Assembly: GCA_037349105.1 (NCBI GenBank)
Contig: JAYJMM010000083.1
Span: forward strand, 930,001-994,000
Source: Limnomonas spitsbergensis
Lineage: Eukaryota > Chlorophyta > Chlorophyceae > Chlamydomonadales
Direction of reading: 5' to 3'
Length of the DNA: 64,000 nt
The position numbers and the translations under genes were made by a program. The notes beneath the pieces are model-generated. The model was not told where the DNA came from, did not search any database, and was given only the letters and a program-made list of their open reading frames with translations. Each line of letters starts with the position of its first letter. The stretch's first letter is position 1. Positions 2,140 to 59,434 of the stretch are shown here, one piece after another.

Positions 2140-4092
2140 TCATGGAGCGTGTATTTTCTCACGTAGGTATCTCAACACTGGTTCATCTGACCACACATCC
2201 ACCTTGGCTGGGGTCCCTGCCCCAAAACCGGGTGGATCACATTCTCCCTCTTTGTCACCACTCTCAACACTGCCAGCATCTGCCTTGGCCACAGGCGCGT
2301 TCCCACCTGGTTCCTGCGCTGCATCGGCCCAATCTGCCGCAGCGGATTCTCCCAGGCACTGCCTGTACGTCGCTGCCACCTCCCCACTGCCAGAGCATGC
2401 GTTTCCTGCAGTAGCAAGGGCGTAGGGGCTGGACATTAAAGTTGCACCAAGCACATGATCCCTGTCCTGGCCTGGCAACCGTGCTCTGCGCACCAGTTCA
2501 TTTGGTAATATTTTGGCACACTCAAGTGCCACAGTGAACCACGCACTCAATGCCCACGAATCCATGCACCTGCCCAGGGCTGCCCTCCTGGCAGCCTCTG
2601 GGAAGTTTGGTCGTGGCATCGTGGATCCTACAGCGTAACCCATGGCACGTTCCCGTTCATTTGCATTGGGCTCCTGCAGATCTCCCATGGGCATGTACAC
2701 CATCCCATTCTGCCCATTCCTGAAAGAATATGATGCGGGAGTCGCCATCAAGCAGGGCAGCACCCTCCTGGGCTGTCCTGTCACATTGATGCGATACCCC
2801 CCATTGTCCGGGCAAGCGACCACCTGGGCCCTGCTGCCCTTGTCCAGAATATTATCTACGACCCCCTCATGGGGCCTGGTCGATGCACGAATCACAAACT
2901 CGATATCTGCCGACGGGGCTATGTTCCCCCAATAGTTGCGCGTGCGGTGGGCGTAAGACCCCACCTGTGCCACATCAAACAGTGCAGGCGTCCCCAGGAC
3001 CCTACACACTTCATTGAACCCGTCTACACTGGCCTTTGTGCTCCTCTGATTCAGCTGCATCGCAACATTCTCAATCAGGTATGCGGGCGGCCTGGACATC
3101 TGCAGGACCTGCAAAGTGCCCAACAGCTTGACCAGCGGGAAGAAATACTTGCTTCTTTCACCCGCCAGCCCACGCCCCTTGCCTGCTGATGAGAGATCTT
3201 GACACTCCCATCCAGCCACCATAAACCACTGGCGCCCATCCTGGGCGCCTGCTCCCCGGAGGTGCTCTGCCTTAATGGCGTACACATCCTGGGGCAGCGC
3301 TCTGAACACATCCTCAAACGCTTTGACTGGGAGCAACTGGGGAAATCGCTTGTGCAACTGCACCAAACGACCCCCAGCAATCTCCCTCACTTCTTCGCTG
3401 ACATTCGCATACAAATATCGCACCACTGGAATTCCTGCCTTGAGCACCATTTCCAACCCAGAGCACATACCTCCAAAGGATTCGAAGAGAACCACTCCTT
3501 CTGTCTCCATGGTCCGCACAGCCTGTACCGACAGGCACTCTGTGTCCACCCCTGCATGTGCGTGAGGCGGTGCAACCCGGGGAAGGTCAGACAGTACCTC
3601 GCTGATCATTCCCCTGGCCCGTTCTCGACCACTGAACGCCTGTTCTGCTGTACTGACAGGCTGTGCCTGCTCATCATCCTCAGTGGCGGCAGAGGATATC
3701 TCCTGCCCAACCACGCCTGTCGCGCAAGTTGCCTTTGCAGCCCGCAACAGTTTCACTCCCCTTCTTCCTTCCTGTGCCATACGGACCAACTGGTCGGCAT
3801 GCCACTGGTTCACCCTGCTCATCCCTGTGAGCATGGCTACCTGCCTCCCGCTCTCCTCCCTCCTGACCACCGGCTCTGATGCTACTGCATCCAGCCTAGC
3901 CCCTGTGCGGTCAGCGGAGGACGGAAGAGGCGACCTGGACGGAATGTCCGCATTCTGGTGGCATGCTCCAGAGCGGTGGACAATGGTAATGTCCAGCTCC
4001 TGGAGCATGAGTGCCCACCTAGCATGCTGGCCCACTAGCGTCTGGTTGTCCATGAGGTAGGTCAGTGGCTCATGGTCAGTGATGAGGTGCAC
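2140..4092 (-). pseudogene. RNase H C-terminal part fused to a DNMT3/DRM-like cytosine-C5 methyltransferase
   Basis: One uninterrupted 650-codon frame. Residues 1-53 are the end of a Ty3-type RNase H (TDHEPLTYLMDN, HRSGACHQNADIPSR). After a linker, residues about 200-525 carry C5-methyltransferase motifs in order: motif I FESFGGMCSGLE (203-214), motif IV GWECQDLS with the candidate catalytic Cys at 297 (bases 3202-3204), motif VI LIENV (339-343), motif VIII YAHRTRNYWGN (380-390, close to the AHRARYFWGN of DNMT3 proteins) and a C-terminal motif IX/X-like region (about 474-520). The usual Pro before the Cys is Glu. Such enzymes transfer methyl from S-adenosylmethionine to cytosine. The frame ends at a TGA (2140-2142) and continues in the same frame into integrase. 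A one-base frameshift near 4090 separates it from the RNase H start. Confidence 0.88.
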
Positions 4093-4250
4093 CTTGCACC
4101 CAACAGCTTGTGACGGTACGTGCGCGCGGCATACACTGCAGCCAGCATCTCCCCCTGAAATGAGGAATAGTTCTTCTCACTCTTGTTCAGGGATCTGGAC
4201 GTGCATGCAACCATATATTCCCGCCCACTGTCATCGCACTGCCCTAGCAC
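4062..4250 (-). pseudogene. RNase H N-terminal part of copy 1
   Basis: The first residues (LGQCDDSGREYMVACTSRS and on through AAVYAARTYRHKLL) match the RNase H of copy 2 at 40420-40575. It is in frame with the RT upstream, separated by a TAG at about 4260-4263 where copy 2 has His. A frameshift near 4090 puts the rest of RNase H in the next frame. Confidence 0.8.
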
Positions 4251-4262
4251 TGCTCCAATGCC

Positions 4263-5414
4263 CTACTTAGAGAAGTCAGTGTACAACAAGAAGGGCCTTG
4301 GCGGTCCTTTGCCATCTGGCCCCGTTCCACTGTAATCCGGCCTGCGCATGACCCTATTGTGGAGCATGTCCAGCATGAGCTCCACATGATTGATGTGCTC
4401 TGCTGGTGTATCACTGTACACCAGCAGATCATCAATGAAAGCCACACAAAAGGAACTCAGGCCCGCTCTGGCTATCTCCTCTTCCATCATCCTCTGGAAG
4501 AAAGGAGGCCCATTGCGCAGCCCAAAATTGAGCTTGGAGTACATCCACAGCTCAGGTCCCATCCAGAATGCCGTCTTAGGCTGGTCCTCAGCTTTGATCG
4601 GTATCTGCATGAATCCCGATCTGAGGTCCACCTTACTGAATATCTTGGCCGTACCCAGGTTCTGAAAAATTGTCTCCATCCTGGGGATGGCAAACTCCTG
4701 CTTAGCCGTACGCAGGTTCAACCTGCGCATATCGTGCGCTATGCGGTGATCTGTCCACTCGCCTGTCTCAGCAATCTTTTTGGCCGCAACCACAGAGTTG
4801 GCTGCGAACTTGATAGGTCCCCCCTGGGGCACCTTCACAATGATACCAGCCTGTATCATCGGCTGGCACTTCTCTTTAAAAATGGCAGCCTTTGGAGGCG
4901 GCATGACCCGCGACTTCTGAAAGCACGAGCTGACCTCGTTTTCCAAAGCCAATGTAAACTCACCCTGCGTGCCGCAGTAGCCTGGCAGGTCCTCCATTGA
5001 GTAAGCGAACGCTCCCTGGCGGTCCCTGAGGCTCTGCTCAAGGGACGCCTGCTGCTCCTCCGTGAAGTCAGGGTGCTTGCCCAGCAGCCATCCTTCAGGA
5101 AGGACTGAGGACTCAGTCTTGACATATTCCGAAGGTGGTTCCACCACTCCTCCTGGCTGGAACACGTCAATCATCTCTGCCGCCTGCGGATCTTCCTCCG
5201 CGGCTGGTGCTTCCCTCCAGCGCTGCTGTTGCGCTGCCCGTCCTCCTGCTGGCTGTAAGCGCCCCCGCCCTGCTGGCACCCCCCATAGGAATGACAGCCG
5301 GCGGACGCAGCCAGCCTGACGTAAGCTTTGCTGCAGCCTCCTGGCTGGACACAAAAGCACCTTGGCCTGCTGTAAATCCCCCGCCTCGGACTCCCTGCCC
5401 AGTGGCCCGCGCAC
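4263..5414 (-). pseudogene. Reverse transcriptase of copy 1, thumb region deleted
   Basis: RT copies element RNA to DNA. Visible motifs are FSKVDLRSGFMQIPI, LNFGLRNGPPFFQRMM and the active-site FIDDLLVYS, a YxDD variant with Phe first as seen in many Ty3-type elements. The conserved lead-in FQPGGVVEPPSEYVK marks the true domain start near 5180; residues upstream of that in this frame are out-of-frame sequence. Compared with copy 2, about 100 residues are missing after LDMLH, where the frame jumps directly to RRPDYSGTGPDG, so the thumb/connection is deleted and this copy cannot encode active RT. The frame ends at LLYTDFSK, the first Asp segment of RNase H, followed by a TAG. Confidence 0.85.
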
Positions 5415-5661
5415 CCGGGATGCACACTGACAGCAGGAGCCACACCAGCATCAGCTGGAACGCTCCCGTAAGCACTCCCTTGAATGCTGTACAATTCAGG
5501 AGTCCCCTGCATGCTGGCGGCTGTCGCACAACTTGCGGCTGTTGCTCTGCCGGTTGCGCATCTATAGGCTCTGCAGCCGGCCCTGGCCGTAGCTGCTCCG
5601 TGGCCCATGTGATCTCTAGGTTAGCCTGGCTGATATTGACCGGCTGGCAAGGGCAATCCAT
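5167..5661 (-). pseudogene. Linker with a hydrophobic, membrane-like segment upstream of RT
   Basis: A strongly hydrophobic stretch (AFQLMLVWLLLSVCIPGARA, about 5400-5470) is followed by a Gly-rich block (GQGVRGGGFTAGQGAF). The same arrangement is conserved in copy 2 at 38900-39060, so it belongs to the family. It could be a signal-anchor or signal peptide with a GARA-like cleavage site. No standard Ty3/gypsy Pol domain sits here and I do not recognise it. A frameshift near 5170 separates it from RT. Confidence 0.55.
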
Positions 5662-6694: not shown

Positions 6695-9600
6695 TCATTC
6701 CCGCGCAGTGGCTCCCCGCTGTGGCTCCTCGCTGACTGCGCTGCGGCTGGTTAGGCTGCAAGCTCCCTTGGCTGCGCCCCCAGCCCGGCTCTCTGGCCTG
6801 GGCGGGTGCTGCACTGGCGCCTGGCTGCTGGCGGGTCCCTCCCGGCCATTGCTGCCTGCCGCCGCCGGCGCACCCCTGTCGCCATGCTCATCGCCTGAGC
6901 TAGCGCTGTCCGTTCCTGCACCCTGAGTGCTCAGCTTCCAGGTGATATTGCCTGGTAGCCACAACACCCCCTGCCCTTCTCGGGTTCTAACCCACTCTGC
7001 AAGCTGGCGCTTTACCACCCTCAGGTTGCGGCAAATATCATCGGCGTACACCAGAGCCGCCTGCTCTGGTCCCCTGCCGCTGGCCCACTTGGCCGCACTT
7101 CTGAGTTGGCGCACCCTGCGGGCCAACCCAGTTTGCAGCTGTCTGATGGCTGCTTGAAACCCCACTTCTTGCAAACCCGCTCCCTCCAGGAGCTCAGGCA
7201 GCATGCTCAAGTGCTCTTCTATGGTTCCGACATCGTCCTCCTCAGGCTCTACCGCTGTCCCTTCAGCTTTCCTCAGCTGGTACTCCAGAACGTGCCTGGC
7301 AACCCTCAGTCCCTCCAGCTGCCTGTCCGACTGCGCTCTGGCATCGTCCAGGCCTTCCCCTGCTGAGAAGTCTTCTTCATTCCACACTGCAAATTCTCCA
7401 GCGCTGTCGGCACTGTCGCTGTTGCAAAGCAGCCGATGCGCGGCGACTTCCGCTGAAACCCCATCTATGAGGGCTATTCTTCTGACGTCCAGCTCCTCCT
7501 CCAGGTCTTTGAGCGCCTGGTTGTGCTGCCACATCCTGGGATCTGGATTTGGCTCTGGCAGCATTCTGATCTTGAACAGCAGGCTGGATTCTGCCATGGT
7601 TGCGCTGCTGGCGACCAGCTCCTGGCCCGCCTCATGCAGGCCCATCTCCTCCTTCCTCTGCTTATCAAGCTGCCCCACAAATCTCTTCAAGGTAGACTTC
7701 CAGCGCTGAGTGCTGTACATGGCAGGGTCCCCCCACTTGTCCCTCGCCACTGGCTGCACCGGCTCACTCATTTGTCCGTCCCCTGAGCTGTCGCTGTTTG
7801 TCCCGCCTTCCGCTGCGTCCCAGGAAGCTGCCATGAGCGGGTCTGCAGCCTGCCGCGGGCTCACCCCCACTGCAGGCAGGCGCTCCCCCGGCTCAAACTC
7901 CCTGTCGAGGTTGCGCCTTGTTTCCTCAATGGCGTCCCTCTCCCAATCTCCGTTGCTCATCAATTTTTGCCTCAGCTGCTCCATCGCCTCCTCGAGGCTC
8001 TGCCCCGGACTCTCTGGTCCTGGGCATGCGGAGGCTGGCTCCCCCGGCCTGCCTGCACTCCTGGCCACTGGCCAGCCGATGCTGATCACGCCCACAGGCA
8101 GCTGGGGGCTGCTTGCTCCATACTGCCCATCTGACTCCGAGTCAGCCACCAGCGTTGGCAACCCCTCCAAGGGGTCTTCGCTCTCCCCGCCTGGTAGGCC
8201 CGTGTCCCACTGGCTTGGATCCTCCCCCTCGCGGAACCCCTGGTTTCTGCGGTCAGGGTGTCCTGCTACCAGTCTGCGTTCGCTGTTTGCCCTCAGAACA
8301 CTGGTCCCGCCGCAGCTACTTGAGAGTGTCCGGGGCTCTGCCCGGTCCCTGGGTTCCACTGCCAGCTCTGACATTTCCAGCTCCTGGTCCATTGATTCTA
8401 GCCACTCCCACTCTGATGCCTTTGCACCCAGTGTAGTGACGAAAGCTGCCTGGAATGGCGCAAACGGCCATGGCTGCTCTGACGACTCCTGGGACCCATC
8501 ATCACTTTCAGGATTGGGGTCCCACCTGCGGGCACCCCACCTGCCGATCCTCCAGTGACCCAGCGCTGGCTGGTCCCTCAGCTCCACCAGCTCTGCCTCG
8601 TAGGTTCCTGATCCTACTCCCTGGAACAAGGGATGCAGCGTGCGCACCCCTGCTGGGTGTGCCTGCTTCCACAGCTGCACTGTCACTGAATTGGCCTGCC
8701 AGTGTGGCGCCACGCTGCTGGCCCTGTCCTCCTGCCAGGCTCTCCTCTCCCTGCGCACCCACTGGTGTACACAGTCCTCCAACCGTTCTAGCTCGAACGG
8801 CGAGCGAGCCAGCTCAAACTCCCCCTCCCACATGGATCCATTGTCGGACGCTGGTCTCGCCCCGTATGGCCATGTGGGGCAATCCATCTCCGCAGGTGCC
8901 CACTGCGCTCCAACACCCCACATATGCTGCATGGCTGCCGACATCTGTCCAGGCAGCATGGTCCTTTGCAGCACCATCATCATGATGGTCCACACTGCGG
9001 GGTATGCACCCCTGTCGTACTCGTGTGCATGGTACTCTGCCTCATCCACATTGGCACACTTGACAATGGCTACATTCTCCTCGCTCCTTGCGAAGAAGAA
9101 TACCGGCAGGTCATTCCTGGAAGCGTGCATGCTGATCCACGCCTCTGACTCCGGGATCTCTCCCTCCTGCACCTCATCATAGTAGTATGACACTATTTGT
9201 TGCACCGGGATGGCTGCCCTGGCATCCCCAGGCGCCAATCCCCACGGTACAGCCAGGCCTGCTACCACTCTGGGTATGAGGATGGCTGCCACAATGATCT
9301 CCTCAAACCGCCTAGGCGTGCCCCCATGGCAGAGCCCAGCGCCGTCGTAGGTTCCCTCGGCTGTCCCAGTGCTCCCTCCGTACGTCCCTGCGGCCACTGC
9401 CTGCACGGGCACGTAGAAGGCGCAATCCCTCAGGCTGGAATGCTCCAGCAAGCTGTGGACGCAGTGCTGCGCCCATGGCGCGTTCATAAATCCTAGCTGC
9501 GCCCCTTGCCACACTCCATCTGTGCGCACGCTGTCAGGCACCTCCCATCGTGCCATGTCCACAGCGTTCACTGCTGTTACTCCCTCTTCGCCCACCAGGT

Positions 9601-10630
9601 GCACGACCCTGTAAACGCAATGAGACCAGATGGGAAGCCCCCACTCTTGCTGCATGAAATTGGCCATCACCGTGCTGGGCTTGATGTACCCTTTGAGCGC
9701 CGCGACCAGCAGCACCGCTGTTACTGCGTCCCAGGGGAAAACCAGCATGGCCACTGCCTGCATGGCAGCCTGCCGATTGACGCAAACCACCTCTCGGCCA
9801 GGCAGCAGCCTGTGGTTTTGGATCTTGCAAAGCCCATCCTGGTAATCCTCAGGTACTGTAAGCATTGCCTCTGTGGCTGTTGACTCTGGCAGCTCATCGC
9901 CCAGGCGGTACCACTGTACCAAGCCCCTGCTCTCTGGCGGGCCTGGCTGTACATGCCTGTGGTGGATATGCTCTCTACTGCTGGATCCGTCACGGCGGCC
10001 CTCACCGTCCTGGTCATATTCCATATCCTCGTCCCTTCCGGCGGACCACCTGTCGCTGATTCCACTGCCGGGCGGCCTACTGGTCATCTCAACCCACCCC
10101 TCAGGATTGTACCTGGAGGTTGTGCAGTGGTGGCCTCTAACGGGCCCTGCCGTTTCGTCCCCTGAACTCATCGCTGCGGCTCCCTGAGCCCTTCGGCGGC
10201 GACCTGTCCTGCTGACTGATCCCAGAGCCCTGGCGGCTGCTCCTGTTGCCACGTTTCCGATGTGCAGATATACCTCCGGGGTACCTGGGTATGACAACAC
10301 AGACCCCTGGTCAGGCATCGGGGTATCCTCCATGGAATCCGACCCTCTATCGGAGTCGGCGGAGCCATCCTCACTGGGACTGGCCTCCCCCTCCTCATCA
10401 CCATGCTGGTGCATAGCAGCCCGCGCCACCCTGTCTACTTCCTCCATCCTGTCGTAGTGATCGGCCAACTCCTTGATCAGAAACTTCTGTAACAAGTTAG
10501 GCCAATCCTCACACGGAGCTGGGCAACCCTTGCGCTTGAGATCCCTCAGGAACTCGCCTGCATGATGGACGGACCTGGCTGAACCTGCAGGCATAGTGCC
10601 GTAGTGATTCATAGCCAGTGACTCCATCAC
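6695..10630 (-). CDS. Open 1311-codon frame of unknown function in the giant retroelement
   Basis: This is the longest open frame in the window and has no internal stop, although its neighbours are decayed. The first 200 residues are acidic and Ser/Asp-rich. A block of about 350 residues (roughly 8860-9930) is conserved with copy 2 (23150-24250), with shared strings such as FPWDAVTAV, LPGQMSAA and EEGVTAV. The last 500 residues are Glu/Arg/Ser-rich and look disordered with helical stretches. I recognise no capsid, protease, envelope or enzyme motif. It is in frame with the CCHC-bearing segment upstream (10637-12226), separated only by a TAG at about 10634, so it was probably part of a larger polyprotein. 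Its start may therefore not be a real initiation site. Confidence 0.6.
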   Translation of the reverse strand: MMESLAMNHYGTMPAGSARSVHHAGEFLRDLKRKGCPAPCEDWPNLLQKFLIKELADHYDRMEEVDRVARAAMHQHGDEEGEASPSEDGSADSDRGSDSMEDTPMPDQGSVLSYPGTPEVYLHIGNVATGAAARALGSVSRTGRRRRAQGAAAMSSGDETAGPVRGHHCTTSRYNPEGWVEMTSRPPGSGISDRWSAGRDEDMEYDQDGEGRRDGSSSREHIHHRHVQPGPPESRGLVQWYRLGDELPESTATEAMLTVPEDYQDGLCKIQNHRLLPGREVVCVNRQAAMQAVAMLVFPWDAVTAVLLVAALKGYIKPSTVMANFMQQEWGLPIWSHCVYRVVHLVGEEGVTAVNAVDMARWEVPDSVRTDGVWQGAQLGFMNAPWAQHCVHSLLEHSSLRDCAFYVPVQAVAAGTYGGSTGTAEGTYDGAGLCHGGTPRRFEEIIVAAILIPRVVAGLAVPWGLAPGDARAAIPVQQIVSYYYDEVQEGEIPESEAWISMHASRNDLPVFFFARSEENVAIVKCANVDEAEYHAHEYDRGAYPAVWTIMMMVLQRTMLPGQMSAAMQHMWGVGAQWAPAEMDCPTWPYGARPASDNGSMWEGEFELARSPFELERLEDCVHQWVRRERRAWQEDRASSVAPHWQANSVTVQLWKQAHPAGVRTLHPLFQGVGSGTYEAELVELRDQPALGHWRIGRWGARRWDPNPESDDGSQESSEQPWPFAPFQAAFVTTLGAKASEWEWLESMDQELEMSELAVEPRDRAEPRTLSSSCGGTSVLRANSERRLVAGHPDRRNQGFREGEDPSQWDTGLPGGESEDPLEGLPTLVADSESDGQYGASSPQLPVGVISIGWPVARSAGRPGEPASACPGPESPGQSLEEAMEQLRQKLMSNGDWERDAIEETRRNLDREFEPGERLPAVGVSPRQAADPLMAASWDAAEGGTNSDSSGDGQMSEPVQPVARDKWGDPAMYSTQRWKSTLKRFVGQLDKQRKEEMGLHEAGQELVASSATMAESSLLFKIRMLPEPNPDPRMWQHNQALKDLEEELDVRRIALIDGVSAEVAAHRLLCNSDSADSAGEFAVWNEEDFSAGEGLDDARAQSDRQLEGLRVARHVLEYQLRKAEGTAVEPEEDDVGTIEEHLSMLPELLEGAGLQEVGFQAAIRQLQTGLARRVRQLRSAAKWASGRGPEQAALVYADDICRNLRVVKRQLAEWVRTREGQGVLWLPGNITWKLSTQGAGTDSASSGDEHGDRGAPAAAGSNGREGPASSQAPVQHPPRPESRAGGAAKGACSLTSRSAVSEEPQRGATARE

Positions 10631-10636
10631 AAACTT

Positions 10637-12226
10637 CTAGTGGTGCTTCTGAAGGGGCACCTGCCCTTCTTGCACCCACTGGGTCCCTCCCGGCACGTCT
10701 GCCTCCTGGTTGTTCTCAACCTGGGCTGTGCCGGTGGCCTGGTCAAAACCCCCATGGACTGACACCAGGCACGTGTGCCTCATGTGACCTTCCCACCTGG
10801 GAGCATCTTGCATCGTTACTGCGCCCTGCCGTCCTGGCGGGCCTGGCAGCTCGCGCTGGCCTGCTGCGGCCCTCCGCGCTTTCCACTCCTCAAAGGAAGC
10901 GCTTTGCTCGGCCTCGTAGGCCCTCCTCAGCTGGTCATCTGTGCCTTCCAGGCCTTGGCTGGACCCCTCAGCCTCTGGGCCCCTGTCTGGAACGACTGGA
11001 GCCCTAGGTCTGTCCATGCGACCGTTGTTGCCTGCTTGCACTGGCCTCCTGTACTCAGGGCAGTCGCTGGCGTAGTGCCCCGGCTGATGGCAGTTGAAGC
11101 ACACTCCCCCATCTCGGGGTCCCAGGACGATTGGCCTAGCTGCCCGTCCCTGCCCAGCCTGGGCCCTGCCCGGCGGACTCCGGACAGCTGCCCTCCTCCT
11201 ATCCTGTTCTTGGTCGTCCTTCCTGAACGACCTGGCTAGGCTCCCTGAGCCTCGCTCTAGGGAGCGGCCTCGGGGCTGGCTACCCCTCTGCCCTAGTCCT
11301 GGGCTCTCCTTCCTCGTACGGATACGCCTGTCGCTGTCCCCCTCACTTGGGGACCTGCGCCACCTGCCCCTGGCCTGTACATCGGCCGGGCTGCTATCTC
11401 CGGTGTTGTGCTCCGTCAGCTGGCTCTTGACCCCTGGCATGGGCACCACCACCTGGTGCTCCCTCACCTGCCCTCTCTGGGCGCTCCTGCTGCGCTCCCT
11501 GGGAGCCTTGTCCGCGGCCTCAACCGCCGCCGTTGTCCCCTTCCGCTCCCTGCGGGTATCGGGACTAGCCATCTTAGCTCTGTCGGCGCCCACCGGGTTT
11601 TTTAGACCAGGGTCCTTCTGCTCTGCCTCCACCGGTACCACCGTGCTGAGGGGCTCGCCTTCTCCCTCTGGGTCGCTATCCCACGGGGACGCGGGTAGAA
11701 ACATCTCTTGGATGCTGGCTGCCAGTTCCGGGTCCACTGGCACCTTGTTTTGCGGCCTCCCCGCCTGCATGTCTCCAATGGCCTGATACAGGCCTGGCAG
11801 CTGGTCTGCCTGCAGAATATACTCCTTCTGCACTTCTGTCATGACGCTATCCACGGACTTGATGTCACTCCACCTGGCCATCTGCAGGCGTAGGTACTTC
11901 ACAAAGGCCGTGCTTTGTTGGTACAGCTGCACCTCCTTGTCCTTTAGAGCCTTCTGCGAGAACCGCTGCTGGTAGAGCAGTCTATCCAACTCTCTGGATT
12001 CCCTGATGTGCAGAGCCCCCTGGGGCTCCGCCTCCCGCTGGCTCTCTTCCTCCTCCTCCTCATCCTTGCTGCCTGCCTGGTCCTGGCTGAGAGTTGTGCC
12101 ACTGTTCTGGGCTGCTTCTCCCTGTGTTGCCCTCTCCACCTCCGGGGGGACCTCCTTGTCCACCTCCCGGGAACTTGGACCTGGCCTTCTCCTGCAGGCC
12201 TCGGACTGCGGCCTGGCCGTTTGCAC
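10637..12226 (-). pseudogene. Gag-like segment with a CCHC zinc knuckle
   Basis: A 529-codon frame, highly charged (Glu/Arg/Ser-rich), with one canonical CCHC knuckle, CFNCHQPGHYASDC (about 11060-11105), the nucleic-acid-binding module of retroelement Gag proteins. It is in frame with 12263-12718 upstream (TAG at 12263-12265) and with the 1311-codon frame downstream (TAG near 10634), so the three are pieces of one ancestral reading frame. A CCHC located after the protease is unusual, because the Gag of this copy already has its own knuckle at about 13930. Confidence 0.65.
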
Positions 12227-12262
12227 CTCGGCTGCCCTTTCGTCCTTGCTGGGTACATGAAT

Positions 12263-12750: not shown

Positions 12751-13377
12751 CTACACTGGCCGCAGGCCATCCTCCCTTTTCGGCGAATCCACACTGGATC
12801 CCTGCCCACGCAACAGCCGCTGCCTGGTATCCCCCCCTGGGGATGCCAGCTCCAGCGGCAGCGTAAGGTCCCTGGACCCGCGCGCCCCCTGGGCACCCTC
12901 TCTGGGGCGTAGGGTCAGCCTTCCCGCTGCCTCTAGGACCCCATCGTACTTCAGGAACTCTGGGTTCCCCACCAGGTGTTCATATGCATCAGGCGGCGTT
13001 TTCACCACACGAACCACTGTGGGTTCCATGATGGCGTTAGGCCCGCCATAACCATACACCACATAAATAAACATAACACCATACAGGTCTGCCCCTGCAT
13101 TGTCCGTGGTACGGATCTTCTCATCCGTACGCACCAGCTCAGCGCCCATGGCTACTACCTGTTCAGCAATGTTCACAGTGATAACATGGCAAGAGCAAGC
13201 CGAGTCCATGAGTGCTTCTTTAGCCACCAGGACCTTGCCCATGACCATGAGACCCACGCACTGCTCCAGGTTACTCCTGTCGTTCAGGAAATACTGCAAC
13301 TTTTGCGCCGCCGACACAACCATGCTCTCTCGTTTGCCCCTACTGGCCTCACCATGCTGGTCAGTTCCCATTGGCAA
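12751..13377 (-). pseudogene. Retropepsin-like aspartic protease of copy 1
   Basis: Aspartic proteases of this class cut the Gag-Pol polyprotein. The catalytic-loop candidate is ALMDSACSCHVIT (about 13190-13225), giving DSA in place of the commoner DTG/DSG, preceded by a beta-rich segment (CVGLMVMGKVLVAKE) as in retropepsins. A later GVLEAAGRL-like stretch could be the second half. The frame differs from Gag, consistent with either a gag/pol frameshift or decay. Position after Gag and before RT supports the call; the non-standard catalytic triplet lowers certainty. Confidence 0.6.
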
Positions 13378-13709
13378 TGTAGGCAGGATAGTGAAGACAG
13401 CCTCTCGTTCAGCTTGAACACCTGCAGATGGATATCAATCATATCGTCAGCCAATCTGCTCAACACCAGCCTTTTTGCTCCCTTCCTGGAGGCAGGTTCC
13501 TTGAGACTCTGCTCAGGTTCCTCCTCCTGGGAAGGCTCGGGCAAGAATGACTTAGGGCGGGCGTTGTGAACCGCCTGTTTGAACTCCGCAGGCTTGGGCA
13601 CCAGCCCAACCTGCGTCATTAGGGCCACCGACTCGCTGAGCATCTCAGCCATCGTCTGGTGCCAGCCCTCAGGCTCCGCCTGCCCTGTTGGGCTGGTCAG
13701 GTGCGACAC
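13284..13709 (-). pseudogene. Gag-protease linker frame
   Basis: A 141-codon frame overlaps the 3' end of Gag by about 13 bases and the start of the protease frame by about 94 bases. It is rich in Glu, Pro and Lys (EPSQEEEPEQSLKEPASRKG) and has no recognised domain. It probably links Gag to the protease, with frame changes on both sides. Confidence 0.4.
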
Positions 13710-16700
13710 ATGTGCCGCTTGCTGTGCCTGACCACCCTGGCCTGGCCCTGGCCTTGGATACGGCCTGTTGCCCTGGTTCCGATCATACGGCCTGCCAGCC
13801 GCCTGTCCTGCGGCGGCCTGGGCGGTAGAGGATACTGCTGGTGCGGCGGCCTGGCCTGCCCAGCTGTTAAGTCGGTAGCCAACGGTGCTGGCCTGCGCTC
13901 ATCCCTGCGCTCATCTCTGCGCTCATCCCTGGCCCTGGGCACTCTGCAGTCCCTGGCCAGATGCGCTGTGCTACCACACTGGTAACACGCCTTGGACGCT
14001 CCCATCGCGCCCCCTGCGCTGTTGTGCTGCGCTGCGGGTTGGTCTGCCCAGGAAACTCCTCTGGGTTTACCCTCACTCCGCTGTTGCTGGGCTGCAGCGG
14101 GGCCTGCGGGGATCACTGTCCCATCAAGGCGCGCCCGCATCTCCCACTGTCCAGTCCGTTCTCTCCTCCCTCTGTTGTTCTGCGCCTCACCCTGGCCAGG
14201 TCCAATGTTGGCCACCTGCCTCAGGCTTGCACCTCCTAGGTCCCCCATTTCCAGGGCGAACTTTTCCCATAGCACCACCTGCTGAGTCAGCACTGTGATC
14301 TGGTCTTCATCCGTCATACACAGGTACCCTGGTACCGTGAAGACGAATTCTCTCAGCTTTGCATTTGTAGCAGCTGGCAGCCCGTCATGAAACATGTGCG
14401 AGACGGAGTGTCGCCTGCCAAAGTGGTCCACTGCATCCCTCGAGATCTGCAGCAACTGCGTTGTTGACAGCACTCTGTGAGCAAACGCCTCCACAGTCTC
14501 CTCTGACTTAACTTCCGGGTCGAGGGTGGTCTTCACCCCCAACCGGATGTTGGAGATAGCTGTCCTCTCCTCTGAGGTTGGCTTCCCCACCTCCGCTTGC
14601 ACCACCCTGATCCACAAGGTGAGCAGCGATGTTTCCCGGCACTGCTCCCCCACTGGGGCAGTCCACAGATCCCTGATCTTGTCCACTTCTCTGGCAGCCC
14701 TTTCTCCTGCGTGGGGCGCTGCCCTGATGGCCAACATCAGCGGCCCCACACACGCAGGCTTGCTGTCCCACAGCTTGACCAGCGACTTCACCAGCATAGC
14801 CATAGCTGATGGCGATTGGCACGATCCCGTGATCTCCCCTGCTACCACAGACAGTGCTGGCGGTTCATCTGACAGCGCCGGCCTGTTGTGTGAATCCCAA
14901 TAGCCACAAGCTTGGCAATACGTCCTGGCTGCAACCGCGCCCGGGTGCGACATGTTCCTTGCCTGCTCCCGATCGAGCCTTCTCATTTCCTGGTCACCTG
15001 ACTCCCGCATGGCCCCTGGCCCGCGCCTGTCTGCTCCAGTTGACCCTGAATCCTCTGATCCAGAGTGTGATCCAGATCCGCCGCCCCCTGATGGGTTGCG
15101 ATCCTGCTGGTATCCGATGTGTCTGTTATCTGGCTCCTCCTGAGCATGGTTCTCTCCGGACGGCTGTCTGCCTGCCCTGCCTGCGGAGCCTCTGCTCCCT
15201 GCAGGTGGCGGCCACCCCACCTCACTTCTGCTCTGCCGCTCCACAGGGCCGGATCTCCAAGGCTGTGCTCCCATGTCTGATTCTGCCTGCCCCCTGGGCG
15301 TTCCCTGGTTTTGCCAACCTTGCTGCGCTGCTCCGCTGTTTTCAGCCTGCCCCCTGGGCGGCTCCTGACCCTGCCAGTGTTGCTGATCGCCGTCTGCCTG
15401 CCCCCTGGGCGGCTCTCGGTTCTGTCGATCCTGTTGCTCTCTGCTGCCTGCCTGCCCCCTGGGCGGCTCCTGGCTGTATCCACCTGGCTGTTCCGTACTG
15501 CCTGCCTGCCCCCTGGGCGGCTCCTGGTACTGCCTGCCTGGCTGTGTTCCACCAGTATAGTCTCTGGCATAGGAGTCTGATCGCGTCTCCTCCCTGGCCT
15601 CCTGCCTTCTGGGTCCGCTGCTCCTAGTGCTGCCTGCAGGTTCAATTTCCTGCAGGGTCCCCCTTGTTGGTCCCACTTGTCTGGTCCTCAAGAACTCCTC
15701 AATGTGGTCCACTTGCACCTCCTGGCACATATTCTCCTTGCTCTCCACTATGCGCAGCAGCGCATATGACTCCTGTCTGCTGGCTTTGCGCGTGTCCACG
15801 CCTTGCTCTGCCATCATGGCAAGCGATCGGCTAGTCAGCTCTGCCCTTTCGCTGGCAGCTGGGCTGCTGGCCCTGGGCGCTTCCCCGCCTCTTGGCCGCC
15901 CCCTGAGGCTCGGCTCACTGCTGATCTCAAAAGCTTCTGATCTGGGTATCGGAGTTGGCACGGCCCTTGCCTGCTGCTGCCACCTGTGGACCTCTGTGAG
16001 TTCCTCAGGCCGCTGCGCCACTGTTTCAAATCCTTCCCACTCTTGATCCTCCTCATCCTCAGGCTCAGATCCAGGTTCCTCCTGATCTCCTGTCACGCCG
16101 TTACACCATTCGTCTGCGAAGGTCTTAACAGCCAGGGCCGCTTCGTGCTCCGCCCCTCCCTTGGACACCTGTCCAAGGGCGGCTAACAGCGTCGCCCTGT
16201 CCTGGCCTGTATGGGGAATACCCATCATGGCCTTTGTCGCCCACTCCCTCAGGTGATGGGCCTTGAACTCCTCAATTGCTGTGACCTGGTTACTGAAATG
16301 AGCAAACGTCCTGGAGCAAATCTGCTTCCACAGGTGCGTTGCCCACAACAATATTCTTGCCCAGCCAAACGGCTGCGGCTGTTCCTCTATCGCCTCTTCC
16401 ACCTTCACCACAGTCCTGGCCCTGGATCTCTCTGGATCTCCTGGGCTTTCCTCCAGTGCCCAAGCTGGGTTGTGGAAGAATCCATACAGGCTGCCCTTCT
16501 TGCTGGTGCTTGTACGGATCCTGCTGCCCGATCCTGTCTTGGATCGCTGCACCGGCTTACCCACACTGGGTGGAAACCTGGACAGTGGTGTTCCATAGAC
16601 CGTGGAACCTGCTCCTCTTCTAAACAGCATTCTGCGCTGTCGCAGCTGCTGCACAGGCCTCATCCCTGCCTTGGATCGCTGCACCCTTTCCTCCTGGGCT

Positions 16701-17440
16701 GGATCTGACAGCTCCTCCTCGGATATCAGGTCAGCCCAAGGCTTTCCCACCGGCACCGCTGATTTTTTAAGTGCTGCCAGCGGCTCTGCACTGGCTTGCC
16801 AGACCTTCCTGGTCACCGCTGGCTGGGCACCTGCCCCCTCGCGCTTGACCACTGCATGCACTCGCCTGCTCCCCATTTCCTCTCCACGTGGCTGAACTCT
16901 GTTGCGGCCTGCTAGCCCCTCTGGGGCTGCAGCGATCTCTGCACTGTGTTCCGGCTGGCAGGAGTCCACCAACACCCGTTGCGCAACCCTTGCCACCCTG
17001 GGCGGATTCTGTTGCGCAGCGGTGTCTGGACCACTGTCACGCCGTATGCCGCTGCTCTGAGACACCTCAGCCACCTGATCCAAGATCAGGTCTGGGGTTC
17101 CCGCCTGCGTCGGACCCTGCTCAAATTCCAGGCTGCTCCTGGAATCAGCGGGCAGTGGGCCTCCTCGCCCAATGCCTGTCCTCGTCACGCACACAGCACC
17201 ATCGGCCAGCATTCCTGCCTCTCTGGGCAGGAAGCGGTCAGGTCCCGATACCTTGCAGGCCCCTGCGGCCAGATCCACTGGCCCTGCCAGTTTCTCCGCC
17301 ATCCGCAGGGCTTCCTCTGCAATCAGTGAATCAGCCACCTCTATCAGGTCTGCACCTGGCTCCAGCCCCCGCACGCGCCCACTTCGGCGTCAGGCGTCGG
17401 GGTGCTGGTGCCTATCAGGGTGCAAGTTACACTCTGCCAT
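13697..17440 (-). pseudogene. Gag polyprotein of copy 1
   Basis: Gag forms the particle shell and binds RNA. The likely ATG is at 17438-17440: the following residues include RHQHPDA and, after a TGA at 17390-17392, RRSGRVRG, matching the copy 2 start at 22246. The N-terminal 500 residues are acidic and disordered. A helical capsid-like region lies at about 14200-14880 (VVQAEVGKPTSEERTAISNI, VPGYLCMTDEDQITVLTQQV). A CCHC knuckle, CYQCGSTAHLARDC, lies at about 13930-13995, followed by three DERR repeats. A Pro/Arg/Gly/Gln repeat array is at 15285-15545. Apart from the TGA the frame is open for over 1200 codons. Confidence 0.75.
15285..15545 (-). repeat. Tandem minisatellite inside gag coding an EPPRGQA-type repeat
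   Basis: The block CTGCCCCCTGGGCGGCTCC or a close variant recurs about every 50-60 bases (near 15290, 15348, 15396, 15450 and 15504). In the Gag frame each unit gives EPPRGQA followed by a Gln-rich spacer. Units keep frame, so this is a protein-level repeat. Confidence 0.8.
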
Positions 17441-18112: not shown

Positions 18113-18572
18113 CTACTTCGTCCCTTTCAAAAGGACACGCAATGTGCGCTTCAGGTCCGTGGCGGACTTCTCCCTCACGACAGTGATGGGCGCCTACGGG
18201 CAGACTTCGTGACTACTCACTGGCTGCGGGTGCTCAACGAGTTAAGCTTCTCAATTTGTCTTTGGATGTCAGGAAATAGCTAGGATTGGCGCAGGCCTTC
18301 TGGCCGTCTGGTCGCGATCCAGCTAGGCTATGTCAAGGGCACTTACCGCGTCACACGCGGTGAGGGGACGAGAGCGCAGACTGCGTACTTCTGTTCTGCA
18401 GGGGCCTCGATCCTCAACTGAGGTCTTCTTATCTCCTGCTATCTCAGCGGAGGCTGATCTAGTCTTGACTTGATGTAGGTACTGACGTTCGGAACACCTC
18501 GGGTCTCACGCACTGGGTGACGGCCGGAGCTTGTTACAGAAGAGGTCTGTCCTTTTGAAAGGGACGAAGTAG
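18113..18572. repeat. Long inverted repeat in the LTR of copy 1
   Basis: Arms 18113-18137 and 18548-18572 are a perfect 25-base inverted repeat beginning CTACTTCGTCCCTTTC. The 410-base interior resembles the interior of the segment at 21161-21608 (GTGGCGGACTTCT and GCGCCTACGGGC are shared or nearly so). It sits upstream of the candidate TATA box in both copies. Confidence 0.8.
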
Positions 18573-18839
18573 CTAGTTTGGCCATTGCCGAGAAAGATAT
18601 TGAATCGGCAAACCCCAATTCAGAGTACGGGAAAGCTAAACTCCTAGCGTAAGCGGGTATCTAGGTTCCGGTTCAAATAAGGAGAATCCGCAGGGAAGCT
18701 GCGAAGTCTCCGTGGTCGCTAACTGCGACCTAAACGGTTCTGGCACGTATACTGTAATATACCGTGACAGCGGCCCTCTATCACAAACATAGGGACATGC
18801 CAACTGACGCGTGAGAATGTGTCAGTTGAGTTCTAGAAA

Positions 18840-20969: not shown

Positions 20970-21160
20970 TTGTGTCACGGTATAATGCAGTATACGTGCC
21001 AAAACCGTAGGGACCGCTACTGCGGTCCCGGAGACTCCGCAGCCTTTTAGGGTTAGAAGCCCAGGTTTCCACTTTCGGGAAGATCTGAGGCCAAGATTTC
21101 CCGTACCTTAGTAATAAGGGCTTGCCGGGACATTGTATCCCGGCTTGCCCACAGTCCCTT

Positions 21161-21608
21161 ACTTCGTTCCTTTTAAGTGGACATGCCTCTATTTGTAAAC
21201 TGCACCGGCTAGATCACGGAGACCTACCCAGTGAAGAGCAACAACGCCAGTACCACTCAACTAGTCAAGCCTAGGACAGCCCTACAGCGTCTTAGCAGCC
21301 CTCGAACCCCAAAGCGAGACACTCAGCCCGACTCAGGCCAACGCCCGCAGTCTACGGCTACGGTCTCTCCCGCCGAGCGCGGTAAGTGACTCAGCGACCC
21401 CCCAGATTAGCTATCTTGAAGGTCAGCGTTTTAGCTAGAAGCCTAGTGCTAGACTCCGCGATTGTCATCTAGAAGTTCCAGCCACAGCTTAACGCGTTGC
21501 GCATTGTGTAAACACCGAGCCCGCCCGTAGGCGTCCGCCACACTCTGGGGAAGAAGTCCGCCACAGACCCGAAGCTAACCTCACGTGTCCACTTAAAAGG
21601 AACGAAGT
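21161..21608. repeat. Long inverted repeat in the LTR of copy 2
   Basis: Arms 21161-21183 and 21586-21608 are a perfect 23-base inverted repeat (ACTTCGTTCCTTTTAAGTGG then ACA). It corresponds in position to 18113-18572 of copy 1 but differs at several arm positions, with matching changes in both arms. Confidence 0.8.
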
Positions 21609-24627: not shown

Positions 24628-25757
24628 CAGGGCGGGTCATATGTATCGTAAAAACGTGGACAGGGCCCAGCAGTGCAAGGAGGTTAGGTCATGACTTGAT
24701 ATCAGTTACACATTGACTGTGCTCTAACCTGATTGCTAGCAGTGCACTAATACTGGTAGGCACCAACTGTCCCTTGAGATAATCAAACGCAAACACAATG
24801 GGCTTAAGGAGTCCACTTGACAGATTCACCAACTCCAATAAATTTATGTTTTGAGATAACTTGGCCAAGCTGAGGGGCCTGCCTCTAATTTTTTGAGGAT
24901 GTTATATTGCAGTGCTGGCCTCCATAGCTGAAGTATTACCTGTTGTAAAGCCTAGGGTTGTGGCTCTGAAACCACCAGTGCTGTTTTTTTCCAGCCTCGC
25001 GCAAAACCAGTCCTCGGCAGATCTGGCTGGCTCAGCTTAGATAAGAAGGGGGGCCTGGAATAAGGGACATGAAAATCAAGATGTGTGAATAAAGAGTGGA
25101 TACCAGACTTAAGGCATTCTGGAACTCAATGGCAGTGATAGGGGAGCTTGCATGGCTGAGGGGCTGCATGGGGCAAGGGGCATGGCTTCCTGGCAAGCCA
25201 CCTTTGCCCCAAATTTGCAGCCTCTGGAGTGGGGAATGGTGCAGAAATTGGGCGGGCAGTCTTAATTAGCTACTCTCAGGCTCTCTGAATCACCAGACAT
25301 CATAGCAATCTGACAGGTTTGGAGTGAATTCCAATCCATCAAAGACAGCCCTGATGTGGGCCACATGGAAGGCCATATCTGCATGTTGGATTGGCCAAAT
25401 GACCCAGGGAAGGTGGCAATGCCTCCGTCTATGGCCCACCTACACCCACATAAGGATCTACCTTAACCGGTTTTGGCCACTTTTCAGGCTCAGCCGCCGC
25501 AAGTTTGGTACCCAACAGGGCAGTTTTTGGCATCCAACTGCCATTCGGATTCAAATGATACCCCAACAGACCTCAATCAACCGTGTATGGCAAGCTGATT
25601 ACAGCACTTGACGATGTAGCAACACACCAGGTCGATCGAGGCAGTTCCTAGAGAGATTACTTCAAATTGCAGTTGGTACTGCTAGTGTGAACCAGGTTGG
25701 GACGGCAGGTCAAACCTCAGTACCCCTAAAACGTGTCGATACATCTGACCCGCCCTG
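24628..25757 (+). repeat. Tc1-type TIR module A1
   Basis: The left end reads CAGGGCGGGTCATATGTATC. The right end, read inward on the other strand, is CAGGGCGGGTCAGATGTATC: an imperfect TIR of about 21 bases. The first two bases, CA, fit Tc1-like termini. No convincing gene inside; a 95-codon frame at 25324-25611 is shortened in A2 and A5 by a one-base change and has no known domain. Left flank is TG of the retroelement. Confidence 0.85.
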
Positions 25758-27074
25758 TACCCGGAAGAAAAGCTCGCAGGTCTTGAACATCATCATTGGG
25801 ACCCGGACCATGCACACACATGGTGGACATGCCCTAGGGAAGTGCAACACCCACGCAAAGCGAAATAAGACCTGGCTACTCAAGAGCACAAAATTGGCAT
25901 CCCTAAAATTATTGCATTTCAGGGCCTCATTTGCTCCCATGGGGCTCACCTCTGAAGAACTCCGTTGGGCTATCGTAACGAGGTGGAATGAGAACCACGA
26001 CATCTCCAAGACAGCTAGGCAGCTTGGACTATCCGACAGGGTTGTGGAGCACTGGGTGCAGCGATATAAAGATTCCGGAGCTGTCCACGTCGCGCCAAAG
26101 TCCGGCAAGAAGAGGATCCTCAGCCCAGAGGCGGAGTCCCGGGCCTATGACCTGCTGCTGAGCAACCAGCATGGTGGTGCAAAAACAGTTGCACAGGAGC
26201 TTGGGACATTAGGCTTGGTCACCAGGCCAGTGGGGAAGAAGACTGTCATTCGAGCAGCCCGGAGGCACGCATCGGAGATTGGGAAAAAATTGAGGGTTCT
26301 GCGGGGTGCGCCTAGGAAGCAGCTTTCGGGGTCAACTCGACAGAAGCGTCTGGACTTCTGCAAAGCCAGCAAGGGAAGGGACTGGAGCCACGTCCTCTTC
26401 ACCGACCGGAAGAAGTTTCCATTTACCTACCCAGGGGTGAAGGTGCAGCCTGTGTCCTGGGGCGTGGAGGGTGAGGGTGAGAGAGCGGTACGTGAGGCAC
26501 CTCTCCAAATCACCCCCTGGTCCTCAACGTGTATGCGGGCATCTGCAAGTGGGGAATCAGCAAGCTTCACTTTGTGGCAGGCACCAGCAGCCAGAAGACC
26601 ACCTTCGAGAACAAGAAGTGCCAGGTGGCCAGGAATATCACCACAGAGGAGTATGAGGAGGTCGTGAAGGCGACATTCCTGCCTGAGGGACAGCGCCTCT
26701 TCACCCAGCACGACATTGCTACATGGTACCTTCATCAGGACAACGACCCTACTCACAGAGCAGCCATACCTGTGGTGAAGAGGTGGAACTCCCAGCGTGG
26801 CAGCAGCGTGGGCCTCCTCCAGAAGTGGCCTCCCAACAGCCCGGACTTGAGTCCGATCGAGAACTTTTGGGGATATATGCAGGCCAAGATGGACGCTAAA
26901 GGCTGCAGAACTCTCCGGGAGTTTAAGGTATCCCTGATCAAGGAGGTAGCAGCAGTACCCAAGGAGTACTTCTCTAAGCTGATGGGCAGCATGCCCAAAA
27001 GGATCGTTGCATGCATCCGCAAGAAGGGCGACAAGACAAAATATTGAAAATTCTTGCCACCCGCCGCTACAGCA
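25758..27074 (+). repeat. Transposase-bearing module B1
   Basis: Begins TACCCGGAAGAAAAGCTCGC and ends CCGCCGCTACAGCA. The two ends are not inverted repeats of each other, so B has no TIRs of its own. The terminal dinucleotides next to A are CA (left of A) and TA (right of A). Confidence 0.8.
25939..27047 (+). pseudogene. Tc1-like transposase in B1, two overlapping frames
   Basis: Cut-and-paste transposase of the Tc1/mariner superfamily. From the ATG at 25939: helix-turn-helix DNA-binding region (MGLTSEELRWAIVTRW, SKTARQLGLSDRVVEHW), then the first Asp in LFTDRKKF. The second part (from about 26515) is in another frame: VYAGICKWGI, then the second Asp in HQDNDPTH and the Glu in NSPDLSPIENFWGY. 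By count 39 residues separate the second Asp from the Glu, against 34 in Tc1. The frame change near 26490-26520 is shared by all five B modules. Upstream codons back to 25687 are A-module TIR sequence and are unlikely to be coding. Confidence 0.85.
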
Positions 27075-28202
27075 CAGGGCGGGTCATATGTATCGTAAAG
27101 CGTGGACAGGGCCCAGCAGTGCAAGGAGGTTAGGTCATGACTTGATATCAGTTACACATTGACTGTGCTCTAACCTGATTGCTAGCAGTGCACTAATACT
27201 GGTAGGCACCAACTGTCCCTTGAGATAATCAAACGCAAACACAATGGGCTTAAGGAGTCCACTTGACAGAATCACCAACTCCAATAAATTTATGTTTTGA
27301 GATAACTTGGCCATGCTGAGGGGCCTGCCTCTAATTTTTTGAGGATGTTATATTGCAGTGCTGGCCTCCATAGCTGAAGTATTACCTGTTGTAAAGCCTA
27401 GGGTTGTGGCTCTGAAACCACCAGTGCTGTTTTTTTCCATCCTCGCGCAAAACCAGTCCTCGGCAGATCTGGCTGGCTCAGCTTAGATAAGAAGGGGGGC
27501 CTGGAATAAAGGACATGAAAATCAAGATGTGTGAATAAAGAGTGAATACCTGACTTAAGGCATTCTGGAACTCAATGGCAGTGATATGGGAGCTTGCATG
27601 GCTGAGGGGCTGCATGGGGCAAGGGGCATGGCTTCCTGGCAAGCCACCTTTGCCCCAAATTTGCAGCCTCTGGAGTGGGGAATGGTGCAGAAATTGGGCG
27701 GGCAGTCTTAATTAGCTACTCTCAGGCTCTCTGAATCACCAGACATCATAGCAATCTGACAGGTTTGGAGTGAATTCCAATCCATCAAAGACAGCCCTGA
27801 TGTGGGCCACATGGAAGGCCATATCTGCATGTTGGATTGGCCAAATGACCCAGGGAAGGTGGCAATGCCTCCGTCTATGGCCCACCTACACCCACATAAG
27901 GATCTACCTTAACCGGTTTGGCCACTTTTCAGGCTCAGCCGCCGCAAGTTTGGTACCCAACGGGGCAGTTTTTGGCATCCAACTGCCATTCGGATTCAAA
28001 TGATACCCCAACAGACCTCAATCAACCGTGTATGGCAAGCTGATTACAGCACTTGACGATGTAGCAACACACCAGGTCGATCGAGGCAGTTCCTAGCGAG
28101 ATTACTTCAAATTGCAGTTGGTACTGCTAGTGTGAACCAGGTTGGGACGGCAGGTCAAACCTCAGTACCCCTAAAACGTGTCGATACATCTGACCCGCCC
28201 TG
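27075..28202 (+). repeat. Tc1-type TIR module A2
   Basis: Same ends as A1. One base is lost in the CCGGTTTGGCC stretch (27914-27924) relative to A1, A3 and A4; A5 has the same loss. Confidence 0.85.
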
Positions 28203-28383
28203 TACCCGGAAGAAAAGCTCGCAGGTCTTGAACATCATCATTGGGACCCGGACCATGCACACACATGGTGGGCATGCCCTAGGGAAGTGCAACACCCACG
28301 CAAAGCGAAATAAGACCTGGCTACTCAAGAGCACAAAATTGGCATCCCTAAAATTATTGCATTTCAGGGCCTCATTTCCTCCC

Positions 28384-29492: not shown

Positions 29493-29519
29493 AAATTCTT
29501 GCCACCCGCCGCTACAGCA

Positions 29520-31938: not shown

Positions 31939-31965
31939 AAATTCTTGCCACCCGCCGCTACAGCA

Positions 31966-46293: not shown

Positions 46294-46295
46294 TA

Positions 46296-48059: not shown

Positions 48060-48061
48060 TA

Positions 48062-59431: not shown

Positions 59432-59434
59432 TTC

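Follow-up and report, generated by a model that had tools for sequence, protein, structure and literature searches.

A giant Gypsy-type retroelement with a DNMT3-type cytosine methyltransferase domain between RNase H and integrase in the green alga Limnomonas spitsbergensis

Does a retroelement of a green alga carry a cytosine-C5 DNA methyltransferase (DNMT) as a regular part of its Pol polyprotein, and what might such an enzyme do there? The question arises from a 64,000-nucleotide stretch of Limnomonas spitsbergensis DNA (contig JAYJMM010000083.1, positions 930,001 to 994,000; hereafter the window), which holds three copies (A, B and C) of one element, every one of them damaged. A first-pass annotation, made from the sequence alone, had read DNMT motifs in order within one frame that starts in RNase H and is in phase with the integrase. 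DNMT-bearing retroelements have already been reported and are rare; the present element extends them.

Element copies in the window

The copy A frame (2140-4176, minus strand) is open for 678 codons, and its Pfam domains agree with that reading. RT_RNaseH matches residues 26-60, the C-terminal part of RNase H (3997-4176, minus strand) being in the same frame as the methyltransferase. DNA_methylase (PF00145) matches residues 318-381 with an E-value of 1.6e-5 and 25 bits, above the curated cut-off of 22; this profile search had been named as a possible refutation, and a methyltransferase fold is what it found. The methyltransferase domain proper, which is DNMT3-like, occupies ~2482-3579 (minus strand), with motifs I (FESFGG, residue 231), IV (WECQDLS, 323), VI (IENV, 368), VIII (AHRTR, 409) and IX/X (ERERAMGY, 507; GRCMD, 535) in unpermuted order. 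The catalytic Cys codon lies at 3202-3204 (minus strand), with Glu immediately before it. Neighbouring frames in the methyltransferase phase match the zinc-binding domain of an integrase (Integrase_H2C2, 1741-2139) and an integrase core (rve) with a PHD finger at ~751-885 (391-1740), both on the minus strand; in-frame TGA codons stand at 2140-2142 and 1741-1743.

The rest of copy A is also on the minus strand. Its reverse transcriptase (RT) frame lies at 4263-5450 (RVT_1, 4e-17), and ~320 bp present in copy B and in locus L087 are missing at the RT/RNase H (RH) junction. Between RT and the CCHC region, an open frame of 1313 codons (6695-10636) has no Pfam match at E 0.1; a large match-less polyprotein stretch before RT is also seen in a stop-free copy (L086/L087). 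Further open frames contain a CCHC zinc knuckle matched by Pfam (10637-12262), an aspartic-protease-like DSA motif recognised by eye (12751-13434, no Pfam match at E 1) and a Gag-like product of 1230 codons (13697-17389), whose CCHC match near the end is under the curated cut-off. The 5' terminal repeat A1 (18136-18769) is 98.6% identical to A2 just beyond the window. The whole element covers contig C83:928551-948769 (20,219 bp), crossing the left window edge, and has a 4-bp target duplication, CCGC. Scanning the 64-kb window for Rfam families (gathering threshold) and for tRNAs gave no matches.

Copy B (plus strand, ~37.8 to 46.2 kb as judged from its homology with copy A and the repeats) had been thought to repeat the arrangement, and in content it does. 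RT and RH frames (39395-40875) and integrase with PHD finger (43336-45033) are matched by Pfam, and the N-terminal methyltransferase half, with WECHDLS (41736-42452), matches DNA_methylase at 1.8e-5 and 24.8 bits. The reading frame is broken, however: the C-terminal half (42614-43351), which aligns to copy A, is in a different frame and gave no Pfam match when scanned alone. Copy C (minus strand) bears out the partial arrangement claimed for it, with integrase and PHD finger (61222-62808, Pfam) next to a C-terminal methyltransferase remnant (~63290-63625, the start being approximate, by offset from copy A). Its likeness to copy A stops at 63625 and resumes near RNase H outside the window; in the DNA beyond the window, the 828 bp equivalent to copy A 2818-3645 (motifs I-VIII) are absent, with other sequence instead. 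The 3' repeats of copy C (53400-53766; B1 53524-53766 and a truncated A2 53400-53521) are separated from the coding part by an insertion (54295-61072), within which another Gypsy-type RT and RNase H is found (55972-57159, minus strand).

The window has several other features. An array of ~2,445-bp units with 98-99% identity and open frames of 332-351 codons spans 24628-36870, the single unit frame scanned (25612-26667) giving helix-turn-helix matches (HTH_23, HTH_28), and an inverted piece related to these units (95-97%) lies at 46292-48060. Fragments of the A repeat occur at 20973-21587, the remainder of the element missing. A gene with a CCT motif (1.9e-10), which is typical of plant and green-algal regulators, is found at 49933-50913.

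Abundance, ends and selection

Across the 260-Mb genome (124 contigs), the motif-IV pattern AGWEC[Q/H]D has 497 exact sites, with none for the reversed control and none for the same pattern with Pro in place of Glu. Numbers are similar for an integrase pattern (464) and an RT pattern (343, an undercount because the pattern omits two Leu codons). Among the matches listed, a same-strand DNMT site lies 1-3 kb upstream of 85 of the 97 integrase sites checked (the first 100, less 3 outside the shared range), the spacing being 1610-1621 bp in at least 79 of those 85 pairs; the other 12 integrase sites have no nearby DNMT site. Conversely, 85 of 100 listed DNMT sites are paired with an integrase site in the matching arrangement. 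These counts make the arrangement a family trait and not a chance insertion, as had been proposed.

Intact members had also been sought as a check, and long stop-free family members do carry the domain. The 678-residue frame had 1746 candidate places, of which the best 65 were scored, a choice that favours whole copies. In 59 of the 65 the match is uninterrupted by stops, and 14 belong to stop-free frames of 5,043-5,256 codons. One such frame (contig C35), scanned in five pieces, matches CCHC knuckles, RT, RNase H, DNA_methylase, H2C2, rve and PHD, and has a large stretch without match ahead of RT. On contig C112 (600894-637137), three DNMT copies of this family are spaced at 17.13-17.14 kb, under one element length, possibly as a head-to-tail array. 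A second family (contigs C3, C41 and C120; L103-L111) has a Gag-like frame of 1,144-1,151 codons and, in several copies, a Pol frame, which at 2,253 codons has the domain order of family 1. Its motif IV, AGFMCTDLS, in which Met precedes and Thr follows the Cys, has 82 exact sites (control 0), and DNMT motif sites in the genome number 579.

A PF00145 search for host enzymes recognised no cellular DNMT3 among 123 scored places of 665 candidates, a search by which exon-split genes could be missed. The strongest places (L091-L094, on C30, C93, C14 and C37) are other C5-methyltransferases with a P-C motif; some look like phage or large-virus enzymes, and endogenous viral genes are possible. The guess that the host is a green alga fits both the named relatives (see below) and a genome rich in chlorophyll a/b-binding proteins, with 111 matches to the family (best 176 bits), which among 14 control prokaryotes was met in Synechococcus only.

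The ends were compared in copy A and ten copies picked for long frames. The elements are 18.6-20.3 kb long in these 11 copies, and their repeats follow the layout A1-coding-B1-A2-B2, i.e. split direct repeats. A1 (left) and A2 (near right) are 627-645 bp long and 99.4-100% identical (98.6% in copy A). B1 (~210-245 bp) stands immediately ahead of A2, and B2 closes the element, adjoining A2 in 10 of 11 copies; in the C37 copy ~1.7 kb of partly duplicated coding sequence comes between. All 11 copies have the termini TGTCAC (left) and GCGACA (right), and the B1-A2 junction reads GCGACA-GC-TGTCAC in 10 of 10. Exact 4-bp target duplications were found in eight of the 11 (CTTA, ACCG, TAGA, AAGC, CATG, TTAT, CATA and CCGC) and not seen in C4, C109b and C27. 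Of three family 2 copies fetched, two have the A1/A2 pair (99.9-100% identical) and the B-GC-A junction, and the third gave no such pair; one of the two paired copies also has B2 (61 bp), with AAAGT on both sides by eye. A plain-LTR reading fails, as conserved sequence follows the 3' repeat copy.

The first-pass description of a giant Ty3/gypsy-type element is therefore right in size and type, and has to be amended for the ends. The Pol order RT-RH-INT with H2C2 and rve, the TG..CA termini and the short target duplication are Ty3/Gypsy features, and two full terminal direct repeats are absent; since split repeats take the place of full LTRs, we call the element Gypsy-type and not an LTR element. 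For Gag and protease, the evidence is the CCHC matched by Pfam and the DSA motif seen by eye. The split repeats are a feature of part of the DIRS order, yet the pieces scanned gave no Phage_integrase match for a tyrosine recombinase and have an rve integrase instead.

In 11 of 11 family 1 copies, a segment of 23-25 nt located ~200 bp inside A1 can pair without mismatch with a second segment at the A1/internal boundary, which begins no more than 3 bases from the boundary itself. In copy A, a perfect 25-nt arm within A1 (18548-18572, minus strand) would be the candidate self-priming primer, and its partner at the boundary (18113-18137, minus strand) the candidate primer-binding site. Two subfamilies differ by a paired change that preserves the complementarity (CTTTCTAAAGG or CTTTCAAAAGG). 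In the controls, A against B2 gave at most 9 and 500 control draws at most 11. In family 2 the complementarity is 15 nt in one copy and 8 (background) in the other, whose A1 end is uncertain. Self-priming is known in Tf1-type elements, which the arms resemble, and priming by the 5' region of the RNA is a candidate mechanism predicted here.

Between copies A and B, dN/dS (Nei-Gojobori) is 0.04 for RT, 0.08 for RH, 0.16 and 0.06 for the two DNMT halves and 0.10 and 0.06 for INT, at a dS of 1.1-2.6, near saturation. Between two open-frame subfamilies, in two comparisons with one partner in common, it is 0.050 and 0.046 for the DNMT (355 codons), 0.059 and 0.029 for INT, and 0.015 and 0.012 for the RH side. 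Within a subfamily, L058/L063 gives 0.081 for the DNMT and 0.246 for INT; L062/L064 gives 1.27 for the DNMT, at a dS of only 0.004 with too few changes, and 0.783 for INT over a poorly aligned stretch. Among nine loci examined, L060 has no motif-IV frame, L062 is without the motif-X string and L064 without the motif-VIII string as written. By these estimates, the DNMT domain is under purifying selection that is nearly as tight as that on the integrase and looser than that on RT/RH.

A CpG-decay signature of self-methylation was looked for in the elements and in the A1/A2 pairs and was not distinctive. No clear excess of transitions at CpG was found in copy A (6/71 CpG sites against 33/579 other C/G sites) or copy C (5/76 against 50/673). 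The observed/expected CpG ratio of the elements (0.51-0.63) is below that of sampled flanks (0.65-0.83), and two other window repeats have 0.44 and 0.70. The A1/A2 pairs of 13 copies have 25 mismatches in 8,387 columns (edges included), of which 10 are transitions and 4 of these CpG to TpG/CpA; a GTG/GAG mismatch at one place at the A1/A2 end, in 7 of 13 pairs, was read as the repeat edge.

Enzyme class and relatives

The annotation had called the domain DNMT3/DRM-like. In sequence and predicted structure it is closest to DNMT3: at E 0.1 it matched 24 PDB sequences, every one of them DNMT3A, 3B or 3C (best 1e-4). The DRM-like part of the label is out, because motifs I to X are not permuted. 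Identity to the catalytic domain of human DNMT3A and DNMT3B is ~19-25% in structure rows, and these enzymes have P-C-N where the element has E-C-Q. Pfam scans of the frames and ORF pieces found neither the ADD nor the PWWP domain typical of animal DNMT3, and so the DNMT3-type label refers to the catalytic domain.

The catalytic motif is E-C-Q and not P-C-Q. In the profile alignment of relatives and window rows (eight distant rows excluded), 103 rows cover the position ahead of the catalytic Cys, of which 88 have Glu there, 13 Pro, 1 Gln and 1 Ser. A motif search of the 147 non-distant relatives with the domain found Glu in 113, Pro in 18, Ser in 3 and Gln in 1, the motif being absent or partial in 12. 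The window copies have Glu, and not Pro, directly before the Cys. The Cys itself is kept in 101 of 102 rows and the motif-VI Glu in 82 of 83; at motif VIII, 68 of 70 rows retain the first Arg and 67 the second. Pro is the usual residue before the catalytic Cys in C5-methyltransferases, and the DNMT3A rows agree; in our judgement it is typical of the class and not defining, the fold and the catalytic residues being what defines it. The Glu, as a departure from PCQ, could lower activity. An origin from phages or giant viruses was considered and rejected: a profile scan found 56 virus loci with weak matches only, whose motif-IV strings all have Pro and never Glu, and a scan with a single protein as query found no loci.

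Protein searches, each scoring the best ~8,000 candidates by shared words, collected 159 distinct related proteins. Named sources are Haematococcus, Cymbomonas and Closterium, plus one protein labelled Chrzof1, which we take to be Chromochloris. Single frames with RT-RH-DNMT-INT-PHD occur in 12 of the 159, and a further 46 keep part of that order (13 RT-RH-DNMT, 11 DNMT-INT-PHD, 8 RH-DNMT, 4 DNMT-INTz-INTc, 3 RH-DNMT-INT-PHD, 3 DNMT-INTz and 4 single variants). DNMT-RT order is seen in three (P0017 and P0096 from Closterium, and P0158). Two have RT-RH-INT-PHD without a DNMT (P0020 and P0022), and another two are other Pol parts without it. The remaining 94 have the DNMT alone, including eight distant bacterial or phage-like enzymes; in some of the DNMT-only proteins (P0019, P0135, P0154, P0156) a protease stands ahead of the domain, with or without CCHC, and P0152 has no further Pfam match. 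In P0002, P0004 and P0133 a second accessory domain, PF01585, presumably the G-patch domain, lies beside the DNMT.

The DNMT tree was built from 73 of 109 rows, leaving aside fragments without a linked Pol part, and a second tree from 52. The 73-row tree, whose bootstrap had not settled, gathers the DNMTs of retroelements into a single group and separates them from DNMT3A and from the eight distant rows; seven of the eight fill less than half of the columns, and the placement of the single DNMT3A row (branch 2.83) is unsure. Elements with the DNMT before RT form one clade (99/94) and those with it after RH another (97/84), with 100/99 in the 52-row tree. The window copy is sister to P0001 and P0120 (98/91), and this is the same with both genome families included. 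P0135, with its DNMT after the protease and before an RT-like start recognised by eye, nests within the post-RH clade, so the position of the DNMT has changed more than once and a simple account of two captures at two fixed positions is rejected. An RT tree of 30 rows groups two pre-RT elements with three DNMT-less ones (100/99), apart from the rest. Together the trees associate related DNMTs with at least two RT lineages and at least two positions; either transfer between elements or repeated capture from one kind of donor could account for this spread. The locus is indeed a further case of a DNMT-bearing retroelement, as had been suggested, but its relatives show that the lineage is widespread, and that this is no isolated fresh capture.

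Possible roles of the methyltransferase

The closest known system is KnitGypsy-Dnmt3 of Klebsormidium nitens, a Gypsy-type element which, like the window element, has an unrearranged DNMT3-type domain with conserved key residues in the Pol frame and repeats in DIRS order with Gypsy domains; its Ka/Ks is below 0.2 (PMC5890265). The host is different, and the likeness is drawn from the description and not from compared sequences. The size, PHD finger, E-C motif, target duplications and self-complementary arms are features of the window element that do not appear in the available description of KnitGypsy-Dnmt3, and no relative from the protein searches is named as Klebsormidium. SymbioDIRS-Dnmt3 and SymbioLINE-Dnmt are also retroelement DNMTs under purifying selection, the former with a DNMT3 inside Pol that has CG activity in yeast (PMC5890265); they are a tyrosine-recombinase DIRS element and a LINE, whereas the window element has a DDE integrase (rve) and target duplications. 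DIRS1 shares the Pol order RT-RH-methyltransferase and the PAT group the split direct repeats (PMC3266345). Their methyltransferase is, however, adenine-type, Dam-like and structurally unrelated (PMC5890265), and they have a tyrosine recombinase and no target duplication (PMC3266345). A Phalaenopsis Ty3/Gypsy element is likewise giant (25 kb) and has captured a nucleic-acid modification enzyme, an AlkB m6A RNA demethylase, in an extra ORF and not inside Pol (PMC9289625). One published sentence names 'green algae' while pooling elements with adenine- and cytosine-type methylases (PMC6338049), and DNMT elements are described in streptophytes and dinoflagellates, apart from a cellular ChloroDNMT group (PMC12344493). 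Searches of the open-licence PMC literature listed no paper on DNMT-bearing Gypsy elements of chlorophytes with the present features.

Homology, predicted fold, catalytic residues, selection, abundance, near-identical repeats and 4-bp duplications are directly supported. Beyond these, we infer that the enzyme may mark the cDNA or alter host silencing, as the annotation had proposed. On balance, we consider it probable that this giant Gypsy-type retroelement, with its DNMT3-type C5-methyltransferase between RNase H and integrase, methylates its cDNA or the DNA of the insertion site. The domain would be made within the Gag-Pol chain, lie beside RT/RNase H in the particle, and methylate the double-stranded cDNA before or during integration; the target may alternatively be the DNA around the insertion, where the PHD finger of the integrase would read the chromatin. 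New copies would thereby arrive with the host's mark already on them. The position of the domain after RNase H, as in DIRS1 (PMC3266345), and the CG activity of SymbioDIRS DNMTs in yeast (PMC5890265) argue for such methylation of cDNA or insertion site. The lack of a clear CpG-decay excess, the atypical motif IV and the DNMT-less relatives P0020 and P0022 count against a methylating role, as do the 12 integrase sites with no DNMT site near them, the absence of an intact motif IV in L060, and dN/dS values that within a subfamily are not uniformly low.

If the domain no longer methylates, an E-C motif IV might mark a module that binds nucleic acid or SAM and serves the handling of cDNA or the structure of the particle. 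Most rows have Glu (others Met, Ser or Gln) instead of Pro, as this would suggest. A module that only binds would be expected to lose its catalytic residues, as DNMT3L has done, yet the Cys, the Glu of ENV and the first motif-VIII Arg are retained at the frequencies given above, which makes a non-methylating module unlikely. On the side of such a module, the KnitGypsy domain gave no methylation in yeast, a result that its authors call inconclusive (PMC5890265). We hold it equally improbable that the enzyme acts in trans, silencing host genes, competing elements or DNA viruses and so earning host tolerance. An antiviral role has been proposed for element-borne methylases (PMC6338049), and 579 motif sites could affect the host methylome, but the benefit would be common to rival elements and the gain for the element itself small. 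An RNA substrate, such as the genomic RNA of the element or its primer, is less probable again: C5-methyltransferases of the DNMT2 kind act on tRNA, RNA was raised as a substrate for SymbioLINE by de Mendoza et al. (PMC5890265), and the m6A RNA demethylase of orchid Gypsy elements is active (PMC9289625), but the closest fold and sequence are those of DNMT3, a DNA enzyme, and none of 48 PDB matches at E 0.01 was named DNMT2. That a methyltransferase gene of the host or of a phage landed by chance in a dead copy, or that the arrangement is an artefact of assembly, is suggested by the broken window copies and is refuted by the genome-wide counts, with the long stop-free frames, the 12 single-frame relatives, purifying selection and the virus motif-IV strings (P-C in 56 of 56, E-C in none) also against it.

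Returning to methylation of the cDNA, we tentatively suggest that the element may belong to an old green-algal lineage whose replication is not fully described, combining a DDE integrase, internally regenerated ends, self-priming and DNMT3-type cDNA methylation. The integrase would insert the cDNA with 4-bp target duplications, the cDNA ends would be regenerated from the internal B1-A2 junction, the first strand would be primed by the 5' region of the RNA folded onto the A1-boundary site, and the tethered enzyme would methylate the product. If true, elements whose ends are regenerated from within would need cDNA methylation in order to function, whatever their integrase type. Such a need is suggested by the recurrence of unrelated methyltransferases after RNase H or inside Pol, in DIRS1 (adenine type), SymbioDIRS (DNMT3) and the present lineage; Ngaro and Viper, described as being without the enzyme (PMC3266345), weaken it as a strict rule.

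What was an oddity of Klebsormidium and Symbiodinium becomes, with this finding, a broad and recently mobile lineage. The element provides a naturally occurring form of the catalytic motif that departs from the usual one, and ties the enzyme to unusual terminal repeats. Eukaryotes routinely use cytosine methylation against retroelements, and here an element present at hundreds of sites maintains such an enzyme under selection, its terminal repeats being near-identical in every long-frame copy sampled, which makes the paradox a testable one.
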